This document shows, in pieces, positions 24,155-33,486 of a DNA stretch of 62,591 bases; position 1 is the stretch's first letter; each line of letters opens with the position of its first letter. The stretch is from a virus. The stretch lies in the IMG/VR virus record IMGVR_UViG_3300042691_020564, positions 1-62,591 of that record; one strand, written 5' to 3'. The notes under the pieces were generated by a model. It saw only the letters and a list, made by a program, of their open reading frames with translations. It searched no databases and was not told the DNA's origin. The position numbers and the translations under genes are program-made.

Positions 24155-24589
24155 GTGCATTGGACGTATCAAAATCAACTCGTAGAAGAAATTCCCGAAG
24201 GCTATGTTGGCTTTGTCTACATAATTACGAATCTTACAACCGGCCAGAAGTACATAGGCAAAAAACTAGCACAATTTAAACGTACTAAACCTCCACTCAA
24301 AGGCAAAAAACTTAAACGCAGAAGCACAGTTGAAAGCGATTGGCGCGATTACTGGGGTTCTAGCGATAGGTTACAAGCAGATGTCCAAGCACTAGGTCCG
24401 GAAAACTTCACTAGAGAAATACTTTATCTTTGCAAATCCAAGGCAGAAATGTCATATCTAGAGGCAAGAGAACAGTTTGAACGCAGAGTTTTAGAAACTG
24501 ACGACTATTATAATGGCATTATAAACGTCAGAGTAGGCGGATCAAACATACTAAGACAGCGTCTTTTAGAACAAAATAAGGCAAAATAA
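24155..24589 (+). CDS. GIY-YIG nuclease-like protein
   Basis: 144 aa from a GTG immediately after the previous stop. The GIY-YIG pattern is GFVYIITNLTTGQKYIGKK at residues 18-36. It is followed by Arg/Lys-rich strands, SDWRDYWGSS and a helix with E in SYLEAREQFERR, as in small phage GIY-YIG proteins. It has no second DNA-binding domain, so it is shorter than the Seg homing endonucleases of T4. It may be a compact homing nuclease or a DNA repair or degradation nuclease. It lies just before the gene-free structured region, which is notable because homing nucleases often sit beside such elements. Start choice: the upstream ATG at 24151 is in another frame. Confidence 0.75.
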   Translation: MHWTYQNQLVEEIPEGYVGFVYIITNLTTGQKYIGKKLAQFKRTKPPLKGKKLKRRSTVESDWRDYWGSSDRLQADVQALGPENFTREILYLCKSKAEMSYLEAREQFERRVLETDDYYNGIINVRVGGSNILRQRLLEQNKAK

Positions 24590-25079: not shown

Positions 25080-26576
25080 ATGCGTCTTACAAATTTATCA
25101 GATTCAATATTATTAAGAGAACAACATCTTATAAGCAGCCGTGCGATTTTAAGAGAATCTTGTGAAGGTTTAACTATCGAACAGAGAAAGATAGTTGAAA
25201 ATATCTATAATGAATTCTTACCTTTAATTGAAGCCAGTCTTACTGTTGATCAGATAAAACAGATATTTGGTGCTGTTGAAAAACAAAGTATTGAAGGTGG
25301 ACAAAGTCGAACCCTAGCAGGTAAAGGCATAGATGTTGCTAAAAAAGCCAACGAAGTTATAGATAAAATTGGCACGTGGCTACAGGATACTACTCCTGTA
25401 AAAATGGCTGATCAAAAGTTTGAACAGTTAAAAGCTAAAGTCGGCGCAAAGTTTCCAGATTTAGACAAACAGTTAACAGGTCTAGGCACATGGATGAAAG
25501 AAAATCCAGGCAAAAGTGCTGCGGTCATCGGTGTGCTAACGGCACTAGCTTCTTTAGCAGGCGGACCTGTAGGTGGCGCAATTGCTGGTCAGGTGCTACG
25601 AGGTGCTGCAGAATTAATTAAAGGTGAAAAACTTTCTACTGCTGTTGGCAAAGGTATCAAAACAGCTGCCTACGGTGCTATTGCAGGATGGTTGTTAGAT
25701 GGGCTAGGTGATTGGCTAGCTGGTTTGAGAGCTGAAGTAGTTCCTTTTGACAAGGTTCCGGGATTGGTTCAGTTGGATGTAGGAGTAACAAGGACACTCA
25801 CAGGCTTTGGTTCTGAACTGAAACAGCGAGTGTACTCGGTATTTGTCCCAGAAGATCTTGCTGGAACAATGCAAGCCACTATAAATGCTGCCCGTGGTGG
25901 TGACGTTGATGCGTTTAAACAGATCTATGATTTCTCTAAAAACTTTAGCAGATCGGATTATCTAGCAGGCATGGAAATTTCAAATGCCATAGCCAAATCA
26001 ATCGCTCAAGAAAATGATCTTTTCCTAAAAGGCATAGAAGCTGCTAACAAAATTATCACTGCTGCTGCACAGGGATCCATCGCAGGCAAAATGGCAGCAG
26101 GCGATGTTAAAGTAGATGGAAAACCCATTACTCCCGAAGGCGGCGCACCTAAAGAAAGCTACTACATTCAGACCAAACCTCTCAGTGAAGGTCAAGTGTA
26201 TCTTCTATTCAACAACGTGTTGACTGAAGCTGGCTTTATGGACAAACTAAAATCTGGCGCCAGCTGGCTAGGAAAACAAGCAACAGAAAAAGTTACTTCG
26301 GCAAAATTAACTGCTGCATGGAAACTAGACGGATCTCCCACTGACAGTGAACAGCTTAGACAATTCTTATTGAATTACGGAGGAATAGACAAAGCTGCAA
26401 TCGATAAAGTTTACCAAGATATGAAATTGCCTGTTGGAAAACAAGAACCAAAATTAGATGATCCTGCAGCAGCCGGTACTAAGTACACTCAGGTAAAAGA
26501 TACGCTAAAACAATTAAATAATAAGGACAAACAACGTTTAGTTGCTTATTTGCAAAAACAACTAGGAACAGCCTAA
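25080..26576 (+). CDS. unrecognised probable internal virion protein with glycine-zipper segment
   Basis: 498 aa, no family recognised. The first 25 residues (MRLTNLSDSILLREQ, then SSRAILRES) contain two L-x-E sites of the kind cut by the T4 prohead protease. Residues about 145-180 form a Gly/Ala-rich hydrophobic stretch (AAVIGVLTALASLAGGPVGG), which could be membrane-active. The final 32 residues (QVKDTLKQLNNKDKQRLVAY and beyond) are a small helical domain that recurs in the next gene. It follows a late-type promoter and precedes the tail and head genes, so a virion or head-interior role is plausible but not proven. The next gene starts 1 nt after its stop. Confidence 0.8.
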   Translation: MRLTNLSDSILLREQHLISSRAILRESCEGLTIEQRKIVENIYNEFLPLIEASLTVDQIKQIFGAVEKQSIEGGQSRTLAGKGIDVAKKANEVIDKIGTWLQDTTPVKMADQKFEQLKAKVGAKFPDLDKQLTGLGTWMKENPGKSAAVIGVLTALASLAGGPVGGAIAGQVLRGAAELIKGEKLSTAVGKGIKTAAYGAIAGWLLDGLGDWLAGLRAEVVPFDKVPGLVQLDVGVTRTLTGFGSELKQRVYSVFVPEDLAGTMQATINAARGGDVDAFKQIYDFSKNFSRSDYLAGMEISNAIAKSIAQENDLFLKGIEAANKIITAAAQGSIAGKMAAGDVKVDGKPITPEGGAPKESYYIQTKPLSEGQVYLLFNNVLTEAGFMDKLKSGASWLGKQATEKVTSAKLTAAWKLDGSPTDSEQLRQFLLNYGGIDKAAIDKVYQDMKLPVGKQEPKLDDPAAAGTKYTQVKDTLKQLNNKDKQRLVAYLQKQLGTA

Positions 26577-26577
26577 C

Positions 26578-27486
26578 ATGAGAATCAATGAAATATTAAC
26601 AGAATCGCAACAACAGCTAGACGAAGGCCCGATCGGATCAGCACTAGGTGCTGTAGGTCGAGGTATTGGCAAAGTAGCGGGAGGTCTCGCTAAAGGAGTA
26701 GGCGCAGTAGCAGGAGGTGTTGTTGGCGCTGGCCGAGCATTGAAAAAAGGCTATCAGTCTGGTAAAGCAGTAGTCGGTGATGATCCAGATCCTAATGCCG
26801 GCGCTCCAGGATATGAAGATCCAGAAGAACCAGAAACTACACCTACTAAGCCCGCTCCAAAAAATACAACTCCGGCACCTTCGCCAGAGCCAACACCTGC
26901 ACCTGGACCAACTCCTGCTCCAACACCTGCACCTGGACCAACTCCTGCACCAACACCTGCACCTGGACCAACTCCTGCACCAACACCTGCACCTGCACCT
27001 AAAACTCCTACAAATTATGCGCAGGTCAAAGCAAGTATTGATCAATTAGACAAAAAAGGCAAACAACGTATTCTTCAGTTATTACAAAAATCGTTAGGAC
27101 AACCAGCTACTACTCCAGCTCCTACTCCTAAGCCCGGACCCGCACCTGCACCTGCTCCGGCACCTGCACCTGCTCCAGCACCTGCACCTGCTCCAGCACC
27201 TGCTCCGGCACCTGCTCCGGCACCCGCACCTGCACCTGCTCCAGCTCCATCGGGAGAAGCACCGGCTACTAAAAAGAAGAGAGCACCTAAAGGTAAACCT
27301 GCAGCAGGCCCTAGTCAAGCTGAAATTGATGCTGACCGTCAACGTTTAATGGGACCAACTTCTGATTCTAAAATCAATACAGGTAATCCTTTAGCAGAAG
27401 CATTAGCTCGTGGAGTAGAAGTTCATAAACAAAAAATGTTTGAAACTGGGTTAGCACGTGGACAAACAAGCATTTTTAGAAAATGA
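26578..27486 (+). CDS. Pro/Ala-repeat protein, probable virion protein
   Basis: 302 aa. N-terminus MRINEILTESQQQLDEG resembles the capsid-targeting leaders of T4 internal head proteins and holds L-T-E and L-D-E cleavage-like sites. Residues 18-62 are a Gly/Ala/Val-rich segment (GRGIGKVAGGLAKGVGAVAG). Two long Pro-Ala-Thr linkers (about residues 92-142 and 177-224) flank a helical domain (AQVKASIDQLDKKGKQRILQ) that is a clear relative of the C-terminus of the upstream protein. The Pro-Ala DNA is built of short repeats such as GCACCTGCTCCG. The C-terminal 60 residues are basic and helical. Function unknown. Stop overlaps the next start by 4 nt. Confidence 0.75.
   Translation: MRINEILTESQQQLDEGPIGSALGAVGRGIGKVAGGLAKGVGAVAGGVVGAGRALKKGYQSGKAVVGDDPDPNAGAPGYEDPEEPETTPTKPAPKNTTPAPSPEPTPAPGPTPAPTPAPGPTPAPTPAPGPTPAPTPAPAPKTPTNYAQVKASIDQLDKKGKQRILQLLQKSLGQPATTPAPTPKPGPAPAPAPAPAPAPAPAPAPAPAPAPAPAPAPAPAPAPSGEAPATKKKRAPKGKPAAGPSQAEIDADRQRLMGPTSDSKINTGNPLAEALARGVEVHKQKMFETGLARGQTSIFRK
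26870..27251 (+). repeat. Pro-Ala coding repeats (two blocks)
   Basis: Blocks at about 26870-27005 (units reading P-T-P-A-P-G and P-T-P-A) and 27108-27251 (units reading A-P) are built from near-identical 6- to 18-nt units. They code flexible linkers and are likely length-variable by slippage. Confidence 0.8.
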
Positions 27487-27755
27487 GATTACGAGACGTC
27501 ATTGCCACAGAGGGCATATGGGACGGTTTTAAAAAAGGTTACACTAAGGTGGGCGGAAAAGAACTATCTGTAGATTGGAAACCTGAAAAGAAAACTGTCC
27601 CCGTTGATTCTAAACCAAAAGACGCAACTACCCAATCACCTTTTAGTCTGCTGTCTAATAGTGAAGCTAAAGAAATTTTAAGTGCTGTATTAAGTAATCG
27701 GCCACTTGATAGTATGCAGAAATCAAAACTACAGAGAATTTACGATAAGTTTTAA
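27483..27755 (+). CDS. small unrecognised protein with capsid-targeting-like N-terminus
   Basis: 90 aa. It begins MRLRDVIATEGIWDGFKKG, which resembles the leader of T4 internal proteins (M-K-x-x-x-E-F-I-A-E) more than either upstream neighbour does. The middle is Lys/Pro/Thr-rich and probably unfolded. The last 35 residues (NSEAKEILSAVLSNRPLDSM and on) form a short helical domain. It overlaps the upstream gene by 4 nt. Its stop overlaps the stop of the convergent minus-strand gene (27752-27755). Function unknown; packaging into the head is inferred only from the leader. Confidence 0.7.
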   Translation: MRLRDVIATEGIWDGFKKGYTKVGGKELSVDWKPEKKTVPVDSKPKDATTQSPFSLLSNSEAKEILSAVLSNRPLDSMQKSKLQRIYDKF

Positions 27756-27964
27756 AAGAAAGCTAAACCAGTTTTTTTAGTTGTTTCTAGATTTTCTTTT
27801 ACAATTTCGCCAATTAAATCTCGTTCTTCCCAACTCATGTGCATTATTTCAGCATATGAAAAACTGCCTCGCATATACCAGCAGAGTTTGAGACATTCTT
27901 TTTTAAGTGCCTTGCCTTCTTTTTCTAGTTGTTCGGATTCCCGTAAAATCTCCGGCAAGGACAT
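27752..27964 (-). CDS. tail assembly chaperone extension, probable -1 frameshift product
   Basis: 70 codons from the ATG at 27964, helical and charged (MSLPEILRESEQLEKEG, then SFSYAEIMHMSWEERDLIGE, ETTKKTGLAFF). The SWEERDLI segment and the final TTKKTG resemble the small gene that follows gp26-type genes in aquatic T4-like phages. There is no ribosome site before the ATG. The frame is in the -1 phase of the preceding gp26-like gene and stays open upstream through that gene's stop, back to a slippery run at 27982-27991. It is therefore probably made mainly as the C-terminal part of a fusion of about 359 aa, like lambda gpG-T. Independent or coupled initiation at 27964 cannot be excluded. Confidence 0.7.
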   Translation of the reverse strand: MSLPEILRESEQLEKEGKALKKECLKLCWYMRGSFSYAEIMHMSWEERDLIGEIVKENLETTKKTGLAFF

Positions 27965-27991
27965 TGTTAAGATTTTACGGCGAAAAAATTT
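27941..27991 (-). promoter_or_regulatory. probable programmed -1 frameshift signal
   Basis: On the minus strand the gp26-like frame reads GCA AAT TTT TTC GCC, which holds two overlapping -1 slippery heptamers: A-AAT-TTT (27991-27985) and T-TTT-TTC (27988-27982). Beginning one base after the second is a perfect 11-bp inverted repeat, CCGTAAAATCT (27980-27970) with AGATTTTACGG (27951-27941), and an 18-nt loop. The loop contains both the gp26-like stop and the ATG of the 70-codon frame. The spacer is shorter than the usual 5-9 nt, so the lowest base pairs may open or the A-AAT-TTT site may be the one used. Confidence 0.65.
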
Positions 27992-28830
27992 GCTTGATCC
28001 ATAGTTACAGGTAAGCTAAATTCTTTACTACATTCACCGCATGATACGTTACTAGCCTTAAGTTCAATTTGATCTTTCATTGCAGTAATTTGTTCAGCAA
28101 TTTTATCAAATATATCTCTAGAACAGTTATGAATGAAGTCTTTAATTATAGCTTTATCTGTAACTTTACCTTCAGGACTGTCAATAGAAGTAATGCAATC
28201 TGCAACAATATCTACAGTGAGTTCGGTCAGTTTAACAAAACTTTGACCAAACCTTTCTAGTTTTTCTTCGTCACTGATGGAATCATCTTCTATAATTTTA
28301 AAAATACGCTGTTGTTCGATTGTTTTAATTGAAGTTTTAGTTACTTCTCTATAACTATAAGGTCTGATGTTTACTGTTAGAGGATCGGCATTTATCACAT
28401 CTTGATATGTGAAGTTTGAAAATACTTGGAACCACTCTGTTAGATTAATATCGTAGGAATTATCAGCATTACAATGTGGGCAACTAGTATTGACTTCCAT
28501 TTTGTCTCCGTATGTTGCAACACGGATTGCAATTAACGCAAAGTCTAAATCAATACTGGGCATCTGCCACGGATCTAAAATCGCAGGAATACAACTTTTA
28601 ATCAATTCAACAGTGCTTTGTCCAGACAATAATGCATCAGGAGTTTTAAACATCAACTCGTCTTTAGCAGTCATCGCATATACAGGATACTCACCTGTGG
28701 TGCTCACGTCCAAAGCACCAGGAGGATAGAATTTTCCTTTACTAGGCAATGTTACATAAATTTTTGGTTGTCTATAAAAGCTAGACAACGGGTTTTTTTT
28801 GGTTTCGATTTTAGGTGAAATCTTCTCCAT
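27967..28830 (-). CDS. 26: baseplate hub/tail assembly chaperone, gp26-like
   Basis: 287 aa (T4 gp26: 208 aa). Family pattern: KIYVTLPSKGKFYPPGAL, TAKDELMFKTPDALLSGQST, CIPAILDPWQMPSIDLDFAL, IAIRVATYGDKMEV, then a zinc-ribbon half C117-P-H-C120, and a second pair C264-G-E-C267 near the end. This is the T4 baseplate (gp26/gp51) protein group, needed for hub and tape measure assembly and not known as an enzyme. It is preceded by an exact TATAAATA late box and a GGAG ribosome site 5 nt before the ATG. It faces away from the probable tape measure gene, with which it should act. Its last codons contain the frameshift signal described separately. Confidence 0.82.
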   Translation of the reverse strand: MEKISPKIETKKNPLSSFYRQPKIYVTLPSKGKFYPPGALDVSTTGEYPVYAMTAKDELMFKTPDALLSGQSTVELIKSCIPAILDPWQMPSIDLDFALIAIRVATYGDKMEVNTSCPHCNADNSYDINLTEWFQVFSNFTYQDVINADPLTVNIRPYSYREVTKTSIKTIEQQRIFKIIEDDSISDEEKLERFGQSFVKLTELTVDIVADCITSIDSPEGKVTDKAIIKDFIHNCSRDIFDKIAEQITAMKDQIELKASNVSCGECSKEFSLPVTMDQANFFAVKS

Positions 28831-28899: not shown

Positions 28900-31770
28900 A
28901 TGGCAGGTGTATTCATCGATATCCCCGGAATTGGCAACATAGAAGCCAAAAATGCCGCCACTGAATCTACCTTAAGAGAAATTCTTAAGGCTATGCAGGG
29001 TGTTCAAAAGAACACCGGCGGAGGAGGCGGTGGTGGCGGTGGTGGCGGTGGTGGCGGTGGTGGCGGTACCGGAGGAGGTGGCGGTACCGGAGGAGGTGGC
29101 GGAGGTGGCGGTGGTGGTTTTGGTTTCTTTAATAAATCTATGACCATCGCAGGAAAAACTATCGGCAGTGCTGCTTTTGGAATTGGAAAATCTGCCGGGA
29201 TAGCCACAGGCGTTTTGGGTAAAATGGCAACTGGCGCAGCAGCGGCAGTAGGTGCTGTTGTTGGATTAGCCGAAAAAGGATTTTCAGCTGCCGACAGCCT
29301 ATCTAAATTAGATGGATCTGCATCTGGCGCAGCAGAAATGTTCAGCGGTATTCCTATTCTAGGCACGATATTCAAAGCAGTAGCCGGTGCAGCAGACAGA
29401 ATGGTTGAAGCTATAAATGAAGCAACATCTAGCGGAGCCAGTTTTGGAGGCAGTATATCGTCCTTTAGTGCCAGCGCCAATGCTGCTGGAATGAATTTAA
29501 AAGAATTTGCTTCATTGATATCTAAAAACGGTGCTGCCATGGGCGCATTTGGCGGAACCACAGAAGACGGTGCCAAAAGATTTGCAGTAGTATCAAGACA
29601 ATTAAGAAGCACCAGCAGTGAACTATATGCGCTAGGTTACTCTTCTGCAGAAATAAATCAAGGTCTAGCTAACTACGGAAAATTATTAAGACTGCAGGGA
29701 GCTCAAGGCACGCAGACTAATGCTCAGTTAGCTGCCGGCGCAAAAAACTATTTGAAAGAAATGGATCTGCTAGCTAAGGTTACTGGACAGAATCGTGCAG
29801 ATTTAGAAAAAGAAAGAGAAGCTCTACAGAAAGATGCGCAGCTACGGGCAGCACTAGCAGGACTAGGTCCAGATGTTCAGGCCTCAGTGCATTCTATGAT
29901 TCAGAATATGCCTAATGACGAAATGAAAAATTTCGCTAAGGATATTTTAGCTAACGGTACAGCAACCACAGATGCTAATAGATTGATCATGAGCCAGATG
30001 CCGGGCCTAGCTGCAGAATTGCAGAGAATGCATTCTCAGACTCAGAAGAATGTAAAGATATCTCATGATCAAATGAACTCTGCATTAAATCAGGGCAAGA
30101 CTGAGGCTAAAACTAATTTACAACGAGTTAAGACAGCAGTTGCCGCAGACGAAAGCGTTAGAGCACTAGGTTCTGCTATGGGCGGTATGGCAGAATTAAA
30201 TGTGGATGGTATCAAGAACGGTCAGGCACAGCAAGAACAAACTAAAAAGACAACTGACGGTTTTAACGAAAAAATGAACAAGATGCGTGAAACTCTTAAC
30301 AGAGTTTCTAATACGTTTACTGAATTTTTAGCTAGCAGTGGATTTTTAGATCTATTAATTTCAGCAGTTGAGTTCGTAGCTGACCTAGCCATGAACGTTT
30401 TATTTCCTGCACTACAAGCTTTAGAGAGAGCAATACGACCTGTTATAGAAATTTTAATGAAAGTATTTCCTCCGGTGTTAGCTGTTGTAAGTGCTGCGTT
30501 TGAAAAAATTGCTTTTGGTATCGGACTGATATTACAACCAGTTATTGATAGAATCAAATCTGCTTTTGAAGGTATGCAGCCTACTTTAGAAAGTTTTAAA
30601 GGAGCCATTGAATTTTTAGATGGTATAATAAATTTCACATTGGGAGCCTTGGATGCCACAGTAAGGGGCGTAATGATTGCCTTTGATGGCCTGTGGGAAG
30701 CTGTCACCGGACTGTTTGGTCCTATCAAAGAACTTTGGAACAGTCTAACTGACCTCTATCACACTGTGTTTGGTGCAGGTGATGCTACCGATGGTTTTAT
30801 GAGGATTATCCTAGAAGTAGGAGATATAGTTGGTCAAGCTTTTAGGATCTTAGGATCTATTACTAGCACTGTGATTGGTTGGATGACTGATTTAGTAAAG
30901 AGTATCACAGATTTCTTTAAAACCAATGAAACGGCAAGACATTATCTAGGGCTGTTAGCTGACGGAATATCTAGTGCATGGAGAACTATTAGAAAATATT
31001 TTAGTCCAGAAGGATTCAAAACAATTTTTGATAATCTATTAGAATACATCGATGAGCTAGGCGATAATTTAATGAATTGGATTAATACCTTGACACTTGG
31101 TGCCAAAGGTATTACAGATGACGAATTGAAAGCTAGACAAGAGGCAAGAGCTCAAAGAAAGAAAGAGAGAGACGATGCTCTAGAAGCAAATTTAGCTCAA
31201 AGAGATGCCAAAGTTGATCAACAGTTACGGGAAAATAGACAGACTAGACAACAGTTAGAACAACGTAATCTATACACAGAAGCTAATAGAAAATTACAGC
31301 AAAGAGAATTGCGTGGTAGAGAAGCTGCTGCACAGGCAGCGGAAATGGCTAAAGAACAGGTAGACTATACCGCTGGACCCGAAGCATTATTAAAACAATT
31401 TGGAAAAGTTGAAGGCAGCGCATTAATTCCACAGGCAGAGGGCGCAGCAGCACCTGGTTTGGCTAGAACTGCAAGAGCACTTACAGGAGTACCTATTACA
31501 GATGCAGAAAAGGCGCGAGCAGCTATGGAAACAGATGCTGATAGAAGGCGCCAAGAAACTGCGGCAGCACAACAAAATACAACAACTAGACAGACAGCAG
31601 GTGCAGAAGGAACAGCAAGAACTACTCAAGAAAGTGCATCTACTCTGCTGCAGGAGTTAAATAATAAGATGGCACAACTAATCAGATTAACTGCACAAAC
31701 TCAAACTAACACAGCCGAGACAGCGGAAGCAACTAGAGGATTGTCTAAAGATCTTTTTAGATCAATTTAA
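28900..31770 (+). CDS. probable tail tape measure protein
   Basis: 956 aa. Features fit a tape measure: high Ala/Gly, long helical stretches, and a central hydrophobic block (about residues 485-560: LDLLISAVEFVADLAMNVLF, PALQALERAI, LMKVFPPVLAVVSAAFEKIA, FGIGLILQPVIDRI). A long charged coiled coil follows at about 745-830. The N-terminal 38 residues are a small domain; residues about 39-74 are almost pure glycine with a few Thr. T4 gp29 is 590 aa, so a longer tail or extra domains are implied. It stands divergently from the gp26-type chaperone and directly before gp20. An AGGA lies 8 nt before the ATG. The assignment rests on composition, size and neighbours, not on a sequence motif. Confidence 0.65.
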   Translation: MAGVFIDIPGIGNIEAKNAATESTLREILKAMQGVQKNTGGGGGGGGGGGGGGGGGTGGGGGTGGGGGGGGGGFGFFNKSMTIAGKTIGSAAFGIGKSAGIATGVLGKMATGAAAAVGAVVGLAEKGFSAADSLSKLDGSASGAAEMFSGIPILGTIFKAVAGAADRMVEAINEATSSGASFGGSISSFSASANAAGMNLKEFASLISKNGAAMGAFGGTTEDGAKRFAVVSRQLRSTSSELYALGYSSAEINQGLANYGKLLRLQGAQGTQTNAQLAAGAKNYLKEMDLLAKVTGQNRADLEKEREALQKDAQLRAALAGLGPDVQASVHSMIQNMPNDEMKNFAKDILANGTATTDANRLIMSQMPGLAAELQRMHSQTQKNVKISHDQMNSALNQGKTEAKTNLQRVKTAVAADESVRALGSAMGGMAELNVDGIKNGQAQQEQTKKTTDGFNEKMNKMRETLNRVSNTFTEFLASSGFLDLLISAVEFVADLAMNVLFPALQALERAIRPVIEILMKVFPPVLAVVSAAFEKIAFGIGLILQPVIDRIKSAFEGMQPTLESFKGAIEFLDGIINFTLGALDATVRGVMIAFDGLWEAVTGLFGPIKELWNSLTDLYHTVFGAGDATDGFMRIILEVGDIVGQAFRILGSITSTVIGWMTDLVKSITDFFKTNETARHYLGLLADGISSAWRTIRKYFSPEGFKTIFDNLLEYIDELGDNLMNWINTLTLGAKGITDDELKARQEARAQRKKERDDALEANLAQRDAKVDQQLRENRQTRQQLEQRNLYTEANRKLQQRELRGREAAAQAAEMAKEQVDYTAGPEALLKQFGKVEGSALIPQAEGAAAPGLARTARALTGVPITDAEKARAAMETDADRRRQETAAAQQNTTTRQTAGAEGTARTTQESASTLLQELNNKMAQLIRLTAQTQTNTAETAEATRGLSKDLFRSI
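29016..29120 (+). repeat. poly-glycine coding run (GGN repeats)
   Basis: About 35 codons of GGN (units GGTGGC, GGAGGT) interrupted by ACC Thr codons. It codes a flexible glycine tract near the N-terminus of the probable tape measure and looks like a slippage expansion. Confidence 0.85.
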
Positions 31771-31776
31771 AATAAT

Positions 31777-33486
31777 ATGAGCTGGAAAAAATATTTCACA
31801 CCAGTAACAATAGACAACACAGGCGGAAGCCTAAGTCCAATTAGCGGTCGTGGCCGGCCTGGGCCTGCACGGGCAAATTATTCGAGTTTTTTACCTGACG
31901 TATATGCAGGAGCACCAAATCGTGTAGAACGATACATGCAGTATGATACCATGGACATGGATTCAGAAGTAAATGCTGCTTTAGATATTTTAACTGAATT
32001 CTGTACTCAAAAAGACAAAGAAAATACCACACCTTTTCATTGCTCATTTAAAGGTGAACCAACAGCCACTGAAGTAAAAATTCTCAAAGACAGTTTACAA
32101 AAATGGTGTAAACAGAATCAATTTGAAACTAGAATATTCCGTATAGTTAGAAATGCATTCAAGTATGGCGATTGTTTTTTTATTAGAGACCCCGAGACTA
32201 AAAAATGGTTGTTTGTTGATGCTTCAAAAGTAACAAAAATTATTGTAAATGAAAGCGAAGGAAAAATACCCGAGCAATATGTGATTAGAGATATTAACTT
32301 TAATTTTAAAGATCTTATTGCTACAACACCGCATGGCACGGCGAATACCGCACCTAGCGGAACAAGTTCATATACCAGCGGTGGCGGATTTGGTAGAGGA
32401 TTTGTAGGCGATGCAGCACGACCTGTTGGTACAAGATTTCAAAATTCAACAAATGAAATTACTGTTGACGCTAAACATGTAGTTCATATTTCAATGTCAG
32501 AAGGATTAGATAATAACTATCCATTTGGCAACAGCCTACTAGAATCTGTATTCAAAGTCTATAAACAAAAAGAATTATTAGAAGATGCGATCATCATCTA
32601 TCGTATACAACGTGCTCCAGAAAGACGTATATTTTATGTAGACGTAGGCAATATGCCAGCACACATGGCTATGAGCTTTGTTGAACGTGTTAAAAACGAA
32701 ATTCAACAAAGACGTATTCCTAGCTCAACAGGTGGCGGAGCCAACGTCATAGACGCTAGTTATAATCCTCTAAGTGTAAATGAAGATTACTTCTTTCCGC
32801 AGACAGCAGAAGGTCGTGGATCAAAAGTTGAAACGTTACCGGGGGGCACTAATCTAGGTGAAATTACTGACCTACGGTATTTTACTAACAAACTATTCCG
32901 TGCTCTGCGTATTCCAGCAAGCTACTTGCCTACAGCAATTGATGAGCAGCCAAATACTATGGCTGACGGTAAAGTAGGCACAGCATATATTCAAGAATTG
33001 CGTTTCAATGAATATTGTAAACGTCTCCAAGCTAATATTGTAGAAACTTTTGATCTAGAATTTAAACTTTGGTTGACATTCCAAGGTATTAATATAGACA
33101 GCAGTTTATTTGAACTGAAATTTAATCAACCGCAAAATTTCGCAGCTTATCGCCAATCTGAACTTGATACTGCACGAGCCGCAACTTTTAGTCAGGTTGT
33201 ACAAATACCGCATCTAAGCAAACGTTTTGCAATGAAACGTTTCTTAGGAATGACCGAAGATGAAATTAAAGAGAATGAACGTTTATGGAGGGAAGAAAAC
33301 GGATCTAATCTTAAAGCACCGGTTGACGCACAAAGTCAATTAAGGAGTGTAGGTATTTCCCCGGGGGGTTTGGCCGCTGAAGCTGGCGGACAAGAAGCAG
33401 AAGCTTCACCCGAAATGGCCGCAGCAGCAGAAGCTGATATAGGCGGAGAAGAAGCAGCAGCCGCACCTGCAGCACCAGTTCAATAA
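31777..33486 (+). CDS. 20: portal vertex protein, gp20-like
   Basis: 569 aa (T4 gp20: 524 aa). The start MSWKKYFTPV and the block VERYMQYDTMDMDSEVNAAL followed by DILTEFCTQKD are characteristic of gp20. Further matches are RIVRNAFKYGDCFFIRDPET, QYVIRDINFNF, HISMSEGLDNNYPFGNSLLE, IYRIQRAPERRIFYVDVGN, LPGGTNLGEITDLRYFTNKL and RIPASYL. It forms the 12-fold portal through which DNA enters the head and to which the tail attaches. The last 60 residues are an Ala/Glu/Gly-rich tail. It begins 6 nt after the tape measure stop with no clear ribosome site. Confidence 0.96.
   Translation: MSWKKYFTPVTIDNTGGSLSPISGRGRPGPARANYSSFLPDVYAGAPNRVERYMQYDTMDMDSEVNAALDILTEFCTQKDKENTTPFHCSFKGEPTATEVKILKDSLQKWCKQNQFETRIFRIVRNAFKYGDCFFIRDPETKKWLFVDASKVTKIIVNESEGKIPEQYVIRDINFNFKDLIATTPHGTANTAPSGTSSYTSGGGFGRGFVGDAARPVGTRFQNSTNEITVDAKHVVHISMSEGLDNNYPFGNSLLESVFKVYKQKELLEDAIIIYRIQRAPERRIFYVDVGNMPAHMAMSFVERVKNEIQQRRIPSSTGGGANVIDASYNPLSVNEDYFFPQTAEGRGSKVETLPGGTNLGEITDLRYFTNKLFRALRIPASYLPTAIDEQPNTMADGKVGTAYIQELRFNEYCKRLQANIVETFDLEFKLWLTFQGINIDSSLFELKFNQPQNFAAYRQSELDTARAATFSQVVQIPHLSKRFAMKRFLGMTEDEIKENERLWREENGSNLKAPVDAQSQLRSVGISPGGLAAEAGGQEAEASPEMAAAAEADIGGEEAAAAPAAPVQ

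Follow-up and report, generated by a model that had tools for sequence, protein, structure and literature searches.

In the lambda model of tail assembly chaperones, the short part of the protein coats the tape measure, and the extension binds tube or initiator subunits (PMC5009743). In T4, gp26 and gp51 were described as hub-assembly chaperones (PMC3004832). Vladimirov, Gautam and Davidson (2022, Virology 566:9), as cited in the PRFect paper (PMC10885494) and the Adele paper (PMC12846349), recognized these two proteins as the short and long tail assembly chaperones, and the Adele paper also credits them with the poly-T slip sites of T4-like TAC-N genes. The locus discussed here lies in a stretch of viral DNA of 62,591 nt (IMG/VR record IMGVR_UViG_3300042691_020564), which is called the window below. 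Sequence comparison gives good support for regarding it as a further frameshifted member of this family; the family itself and the principle have already been published.

The short form is encoded on the minus strand and matches PF12322, 'T4 bacteriophage base plate protein' (Pfam, E 4e-18, 66.3 bits, cutoff 24.5), as well as phrog_150, 'baseplate hub' (PHROGs, E 4e-22). Its last codons, GCA AAT TTT TTC GCC GTA AAA TCT TAA, contain two overlapping slippery heptamers, A_AAT_TTT and T_TTT_TTC, each in the zero-frame phase. One base past T_TTT_TTC begins a perfect 11-bp inverted repeat, CCGTAAAATCT/AGATTTTACGG (27980-27970 with 27951-27941), whose loop encloses the zero-frame stop. In the -1 phase, reading stays open over a span reaching from 46 nt ahead of that stop to 215 nt beyond it, which includes a 70-codon frame that reads straight across it; no Shine-Dalgarno-like sequence precedes its ATG. 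The initial annotation had already pointed out the heptamers and their phase, the repeat one base after the slip site, a loop holding both the stop and the internal ATG, and a -1 frame open through the stop without a ribosome site, and each of these was found again at its place. Its predicted product sizes of 287 and about 359 aa came out at exactly 287 and 359 (283 + 76). Programmed -1 ribosomal frameshifting late in the gp26-like gene very probably yields two proteins from one gene, a reading that draws, by comparison, on the slip site, the phase, the hairpin, the constrained extension and the homology of cyanophage-type extensions to the end of T4 gp51. The features are collected in Table 1.

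Table 1. Features of the frameshift locus in the window, with strand and supporting evidence.
Feature	Position	Strand	Evidence
Slippery heptamer A_AAT_TTT, clade-specific	27985..27991	-	sequence; 78/80 relatives; absent from other lineages
Slippery heptamer T_TTT_TTC, core slip site	27982..27988	-	80/80 relatives; synonymous-site invariance; other lineages
Stimulatory stem-loop	27941..27980	-	fold z -2.3; covariation; median stem 10 bp vs 5.25 in shuffles, 64 loci
gp26-like tail assembly chaperone, short form	27967..28830	-	287-aa ORF; PF12322 / phrog_150; 80 relatives
Zero-frame stop TAA	27967..27969	-	sequence; position (6-nt shift) and type (TAA/TGA/TAG) differ among relatives
Extension in the -1 frame (76 codons and a stop; fusion of 359 aa)	27752..27982	-	open 80/80; dN/dS 0.14; pLDDT 92
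ATG within the hairpin loop, unlikely to serve as a start	27962..27964	-	no Shine-Dalgarno sequence; missing in most relatives
Putative tape-measure protein, 956 aa, likely client	28900..31770	+	phrog_305 E 2.8e-7; phrog_1538 E 5.5e-5

A scan of viral contigs yielded 80 relatives of 59-79% identity, with 64 unique loci. Alignment of these homologues, which had been proposed as a check, showed the slippery run, the hairpin and the -1 phase all to be conserved. T_TTT_TTC stands in phase in all 80 relatives, and A_AAT_TTT in 78 of them. As a measure of chance, the 30 long open reading frames of the window (15,825 codons) contain T_TTT_TTC in phase twice and A_AAT_TTT eight times, so that their presence at the homologous place in all, or all but two, of the relatives is more than coincidence. 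Among the unique loci, TTT and TTC never vary, and AAT is retained in 62. Synonymous conservation at the slip site is 1.00 against an expected 0.51-0.65, and the gene-wide median excess is 0.08. A heptamer of the form X_XXY_YYZ, as is characteristic of -1 frameshift sites, is conserved in the zero-frame phase throughout these relatives and in other lineages.

The -1 frame runs beyond the zero-frame stop in every relative, as far as the contigs reach (3 contigs among the unique loci end within the extension), and almost every complete extension measures 77 codons, counted from the start of the slip site. The zero-frame stop is shifted by 6 nt in some relatives and may be TAA, TGA or TAG. Beyond the junction, the -1 frame has a median dN/dS of 0.14, compared with 1.49 when this DNA is read in another frame, and substitutions fall mostly on third codon positions. 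Judged by this pattern of substitution, the extension is under purifying selection. An open -1 frame across the stop, constrained at the protein level, is what a frameshift site should present. The frame might instead be a decaying remnant or a chance overlap that is not made, but openness in 80/80 relatives, the low dN/dS, the near-constant length and the homology of the cyanophage-type extension to a domain within the T4 gp51 polypeptide leave that reading next to no probability.

The hairpin of the window has a predicted RNA fold of -15 kcal/mol (z -2.3). For covariation, 52 distinct gap-free sequences were used, and the named 12-pair helix was tested directly, because free consensus folding of the alignment retained only 4 pairs. 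This helix is paired in 84% of cells, against 31-47% in slid controls, and both sides have changed in 37 cells, against 13 +/- 3 in shuffles and 3-15 in slid controls. Pair 36-63 is G-C in 34 sequences, A-U in 17, G-U in 1 and broken in 0, while pair 33-66 is U-A in 38 and C-G in 6. Since the helix strands code in two frames, conservation alone is weak evidence, and the compensatory changes form the stronger part. In a scan for stems across the 64 loci (medians in Table 1), 48 reached p <= 0.05, whereas for roughly one unique locus in four shuffled sequences give stems just as good. A terminator was considered for the hairpin and rejected, there being no T run after the arms on either strand.

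The stem starts 1-3 nt after T_TTT_TTC, most often 3 nt, and 4-6 nt from A_AAT_TTT, most often 6. The usual spacer between slip site and structure is 5-9 nt (PMC5009743); the distance from T_TTT_TTC falls below this range, and the 6 nt from A_AAT_TTT fall within it. A_AAT_TTT may be a principal site in the clade of the window, with T_TTT_TTC as an overlapping second site. This would explain why the former is retained only there; in the other lineages examined it is absent. The T run could also act on transcription, with the polymerase adding one U so that some of the mRNA enters the -1 frame. Such slippage would agree with the run being the most conserved element and reaching 7-8 T in some relatives, but the aligned loci of the window clade have only 6 T, and the run is kept as a codon-phase heptamer followed by an RNA stem-loop. 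For a bacterial polymerase to slip, longer runs are usually required, and this origin of the -1 product is improbable.

The loop of the hairpin had also been suggested to couple termination with re-initiation, in which case a separate 70-aa gene would begin at the loop ATG (27964). This ATG sits 2 nt past the zero-frame stop, and annotators give separate small genes in several phages. Among the 64 unique loci, however, only 23 carry a -1-frame ATG close to the junction, another 21 have no ATG, GTG or TTG at all, and a Shine-Dalgarno-like sequence occurs in 2. With a nearby -1-frame start missing from one third of the loci, re-initiation cannot be the conserved mechanism; the start-codon counts rule it out in this role, and the suggested coupling is not conserved among the relatives. 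Moreover, re-initiation leaves unexplained both the invariant AAT TTT TTC codons and T4 gp51, in which the two parts form one polypeptide. As an account of the extension it is highly improbable, and ribosomal frameshifting remains the preferred reading.

The frameshift arrangement recurs in jumbo phages, cyanophages, pelagiphages and Aeh1/KVP40-like phages. T_TTT_TTY together with a -1 extension was found in Agrobacterium Atu_ph07, Sinorhizobium Phosso, Pseudomonas PA5oct, Escherichia 121Q and one uncultivated 121Q relative, Pectobacterium CBB, Vibrio 2.275.O, Xanthomonas XaC1, OLIVR5, ZPAH1, Cronobacter S13, P-SSM2, HTVC008M, Aeh1, EniLVp02, Cr30, syn9, Melnitz-2, Marzo and phiN3, and the slip site and extension are present in 55/55 cyanophage-type and 5/5 pelagiphage-type unique contigs. 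Stems with clear z-scores are predicted 5-7 nt past the heptamer in Atu_ph07, PA5oct, OLIVR5, P-SSM2 and Cr30, and are weaker or absent in the other lineages examined. The putative stimulator takes the form of a tandem heptamer with a close hairpin in the window clade, whereas several others have one heptamer and a hairpin at a distance of 5-7 nt. Among the phages examined outside the Tevenvirinae and their close allies, the sole exception is Stenotrophomonas phage IME-SM1, which has T5 where its relative Marzo has T6, and whose annotated gene reads beyond the usual stop. It was rejected as a case of +1 frameshifting, as a sequencing error or an indel probably accounts for the one-base difference. 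The slip site is also missing from Stenotrophomonas IME13, whose genes 26 and 51 are separate as in T4.

Extensions are treated unevenly in existing annotations and families. Several phages have them annotated as the separate small genes mentioned above, and in ZPAH1, S13 and Aeh1 they are unannotated, lying in an 'intergenic' gap of roughly 165 nt before a TMP-sized gene. The 121Q/CBB-like extensions correspond to phrog_18291 (unknown function), and the cyanophage-type ones to phrog_634 (hub assembly catalyst). For the extension of the window itself, the best E value in Pfam and PHROGs was only 0.37.

T4 gp26 ends in the codons TTC TTT GAG, which are not slippery, and gene 25 follows it with a TAATG overlap. 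T4 gp51 is itself a PF12322 protein over residues 1-201 (E 4e-52), and its C-terminus also belongs to phrog_634. This C-terminus is matched by the profile of the cyanophage-type extension (hhalign E 8e-10; hmmsearch E 4e-6, Z = 1000), and the gp51 alignment passes the frameshift junction unbroken. As gp51 matches in frame across the junction, gp26 corresponds to the short product and gp51 to the long one, made from two genes. The extension group of the window and the jumbo phages matches the cyanophage group weakly (E 0.001, probability 20%). There is roughly an even chance that, in the PF12322 family as a whole, jumbo phages, cyanophages and Aeh1/KVP40-like phages included, hairpin-stimulated -1 frameshifting is the ancestral source of the long form, that it was lost once in the T4 branch through the gp26/gp51 duplication, and that lineages rebuilt the stimulator around a fixed slip site.

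The putative tape-measure protein matches phrog_305 (tail length tape measure) modestly and is likely to be the client of the chaperone. Its gene adjoins the chaperone gene in the window, but the two are divergent, and the portal gene (PF07230) comes next, at 31777. In several relatives, a tape-measure or TMP-sized gene follows the chaperone gene directly or, in some of them, after one small gene; in HTVC008M and Cr30, the annotated tape-measure gene is one small gene further along. At the other end of the locus, the stop of the extension overlaps that of a convergent 90-aa gene (27483-27755, plus strand) by 4 nt (27752-27755). This gene is the last of three consecutive plus-strand ORFs (25080-27755; 498, 302 and 90 aa) with alike starts, MRLTNLSD, MRINEILTES and MRLRDVIATEG. 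The 498- and 302-aa proteins have a common C-terminal block (TQVKDTLKQLNNKDKQRLVAYLQKQL / AQVKASIDQLDKKGKQRILQLLQKSL), and neither has a Pfam match. The three probably arose by duplication and are virion-associated proteins that share an N-terminal signal. Long proline-alanine repeats (PAPTPAPGPTPAP...) in the 302-aa protein (26578-27486, plus strand) make its DNA strongly repetitive. Further away, at 24155-24589 (plus strand), a SegE-like GIY-YIG endonuclease domain is encoded (PF19835, E 1e-35). It probably belongs to a homing nuclease and comes immediately after an SbcCD / gp46-gp47-like pair of genes.

AlphaFold models were usable for the short form (pLDDT 80) and confident for the extension, which is predicted to form four helices (pLDDT 92). 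For both domains, sequence and Foldseek fold searches returned no PDB match, which neither supports nor contradicts a tail-chaperone fold like that of HK97 gp13. In a viral structure library, the short-form model matches other T4-like hub proteins, some of them from other jumbo phages.

In the proposed mechanism, most ribosomes would stop at 27967 and release the 287-aa chaperone (TAC-N). A minority would slip back by one base at the tandem A_AAT_TTT / T_TTT_TTC, held by the 3' stem-loop, and would read 76 further codons to produce the 359-aa form (TAC-NC). If lambda gpG/gpGT is a guide, the short form may coat the tape-measure protein, while the extension may recruit tail-tube or initiation components. 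What we infer comprises the ribosomal nature of the slippage, its efficiency, the ratio of short to long form, the client and the partners of the extension.

In giant and marine T4-like phages, annotation routinely divides or overlooks a single protein: what is listed as a 'baseplate hub' gene, together with a tiny gene called 'hypothetical' or 'hub assembly catalyst', is very probably one frameshifted chaperone. The use of frameshifting in some phages and of duplicated genes in others is a clean natural experiment on the need for a short and a long chaperone at a fixed ratio in tail assembly, and the covarying RNA element is something whose strength could be measured. The present analysis contributes strong comparative evidence, the clade-specific tandem heptamer and the evidence against re-initiation, as well as two points that may be new: a hairpin that covaries, and the occurrence of the arrangement in jumbo and uncultivated lineages.

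The initial annotation had tied gp26-type proteins to the logic of lambda G/GT. This fits the published chaperone roles of gp26 and gp51, but the link is not new, as the citations of Vladimirov et al. (2022) in later papers indicate. Lambda gpG/gpGT resembles the window in having a short and a frameshift-extended chaperone beside the tape-measure gene, with a -1 shift late in the first frame; it differs in its slip site and gene orientation, and the likeness is one of arrangement, with no sequence relation claimed. We know of no stop-spanning hairpin in lambda gpG/gpGT. The tail assembly chaperone locus of Vandenendeviridae and Andersonviridae (PMC12846349) likewise has a conserved -1 shift on a T run before the tape-measure gene, and its extension was long annotated as a separate gene or left intergenic, but its slip motif is reported as GTTTTT and the phage families are others. 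The T4-like chaperones, as attributed to Vladimirov et al. (2022) in the citing papers, have the PF12322 short form, the poly-T slip site and the pair of short and long chaperones in common with the window. T4 makes this pair from two genes, gp26 (short) and gp51 (long), whereas the window uses one gene and a frameshift, and its clade adds A_AAT_TTT and the covarying hairpin, its putative tape-measure gene being divergently transcribed.
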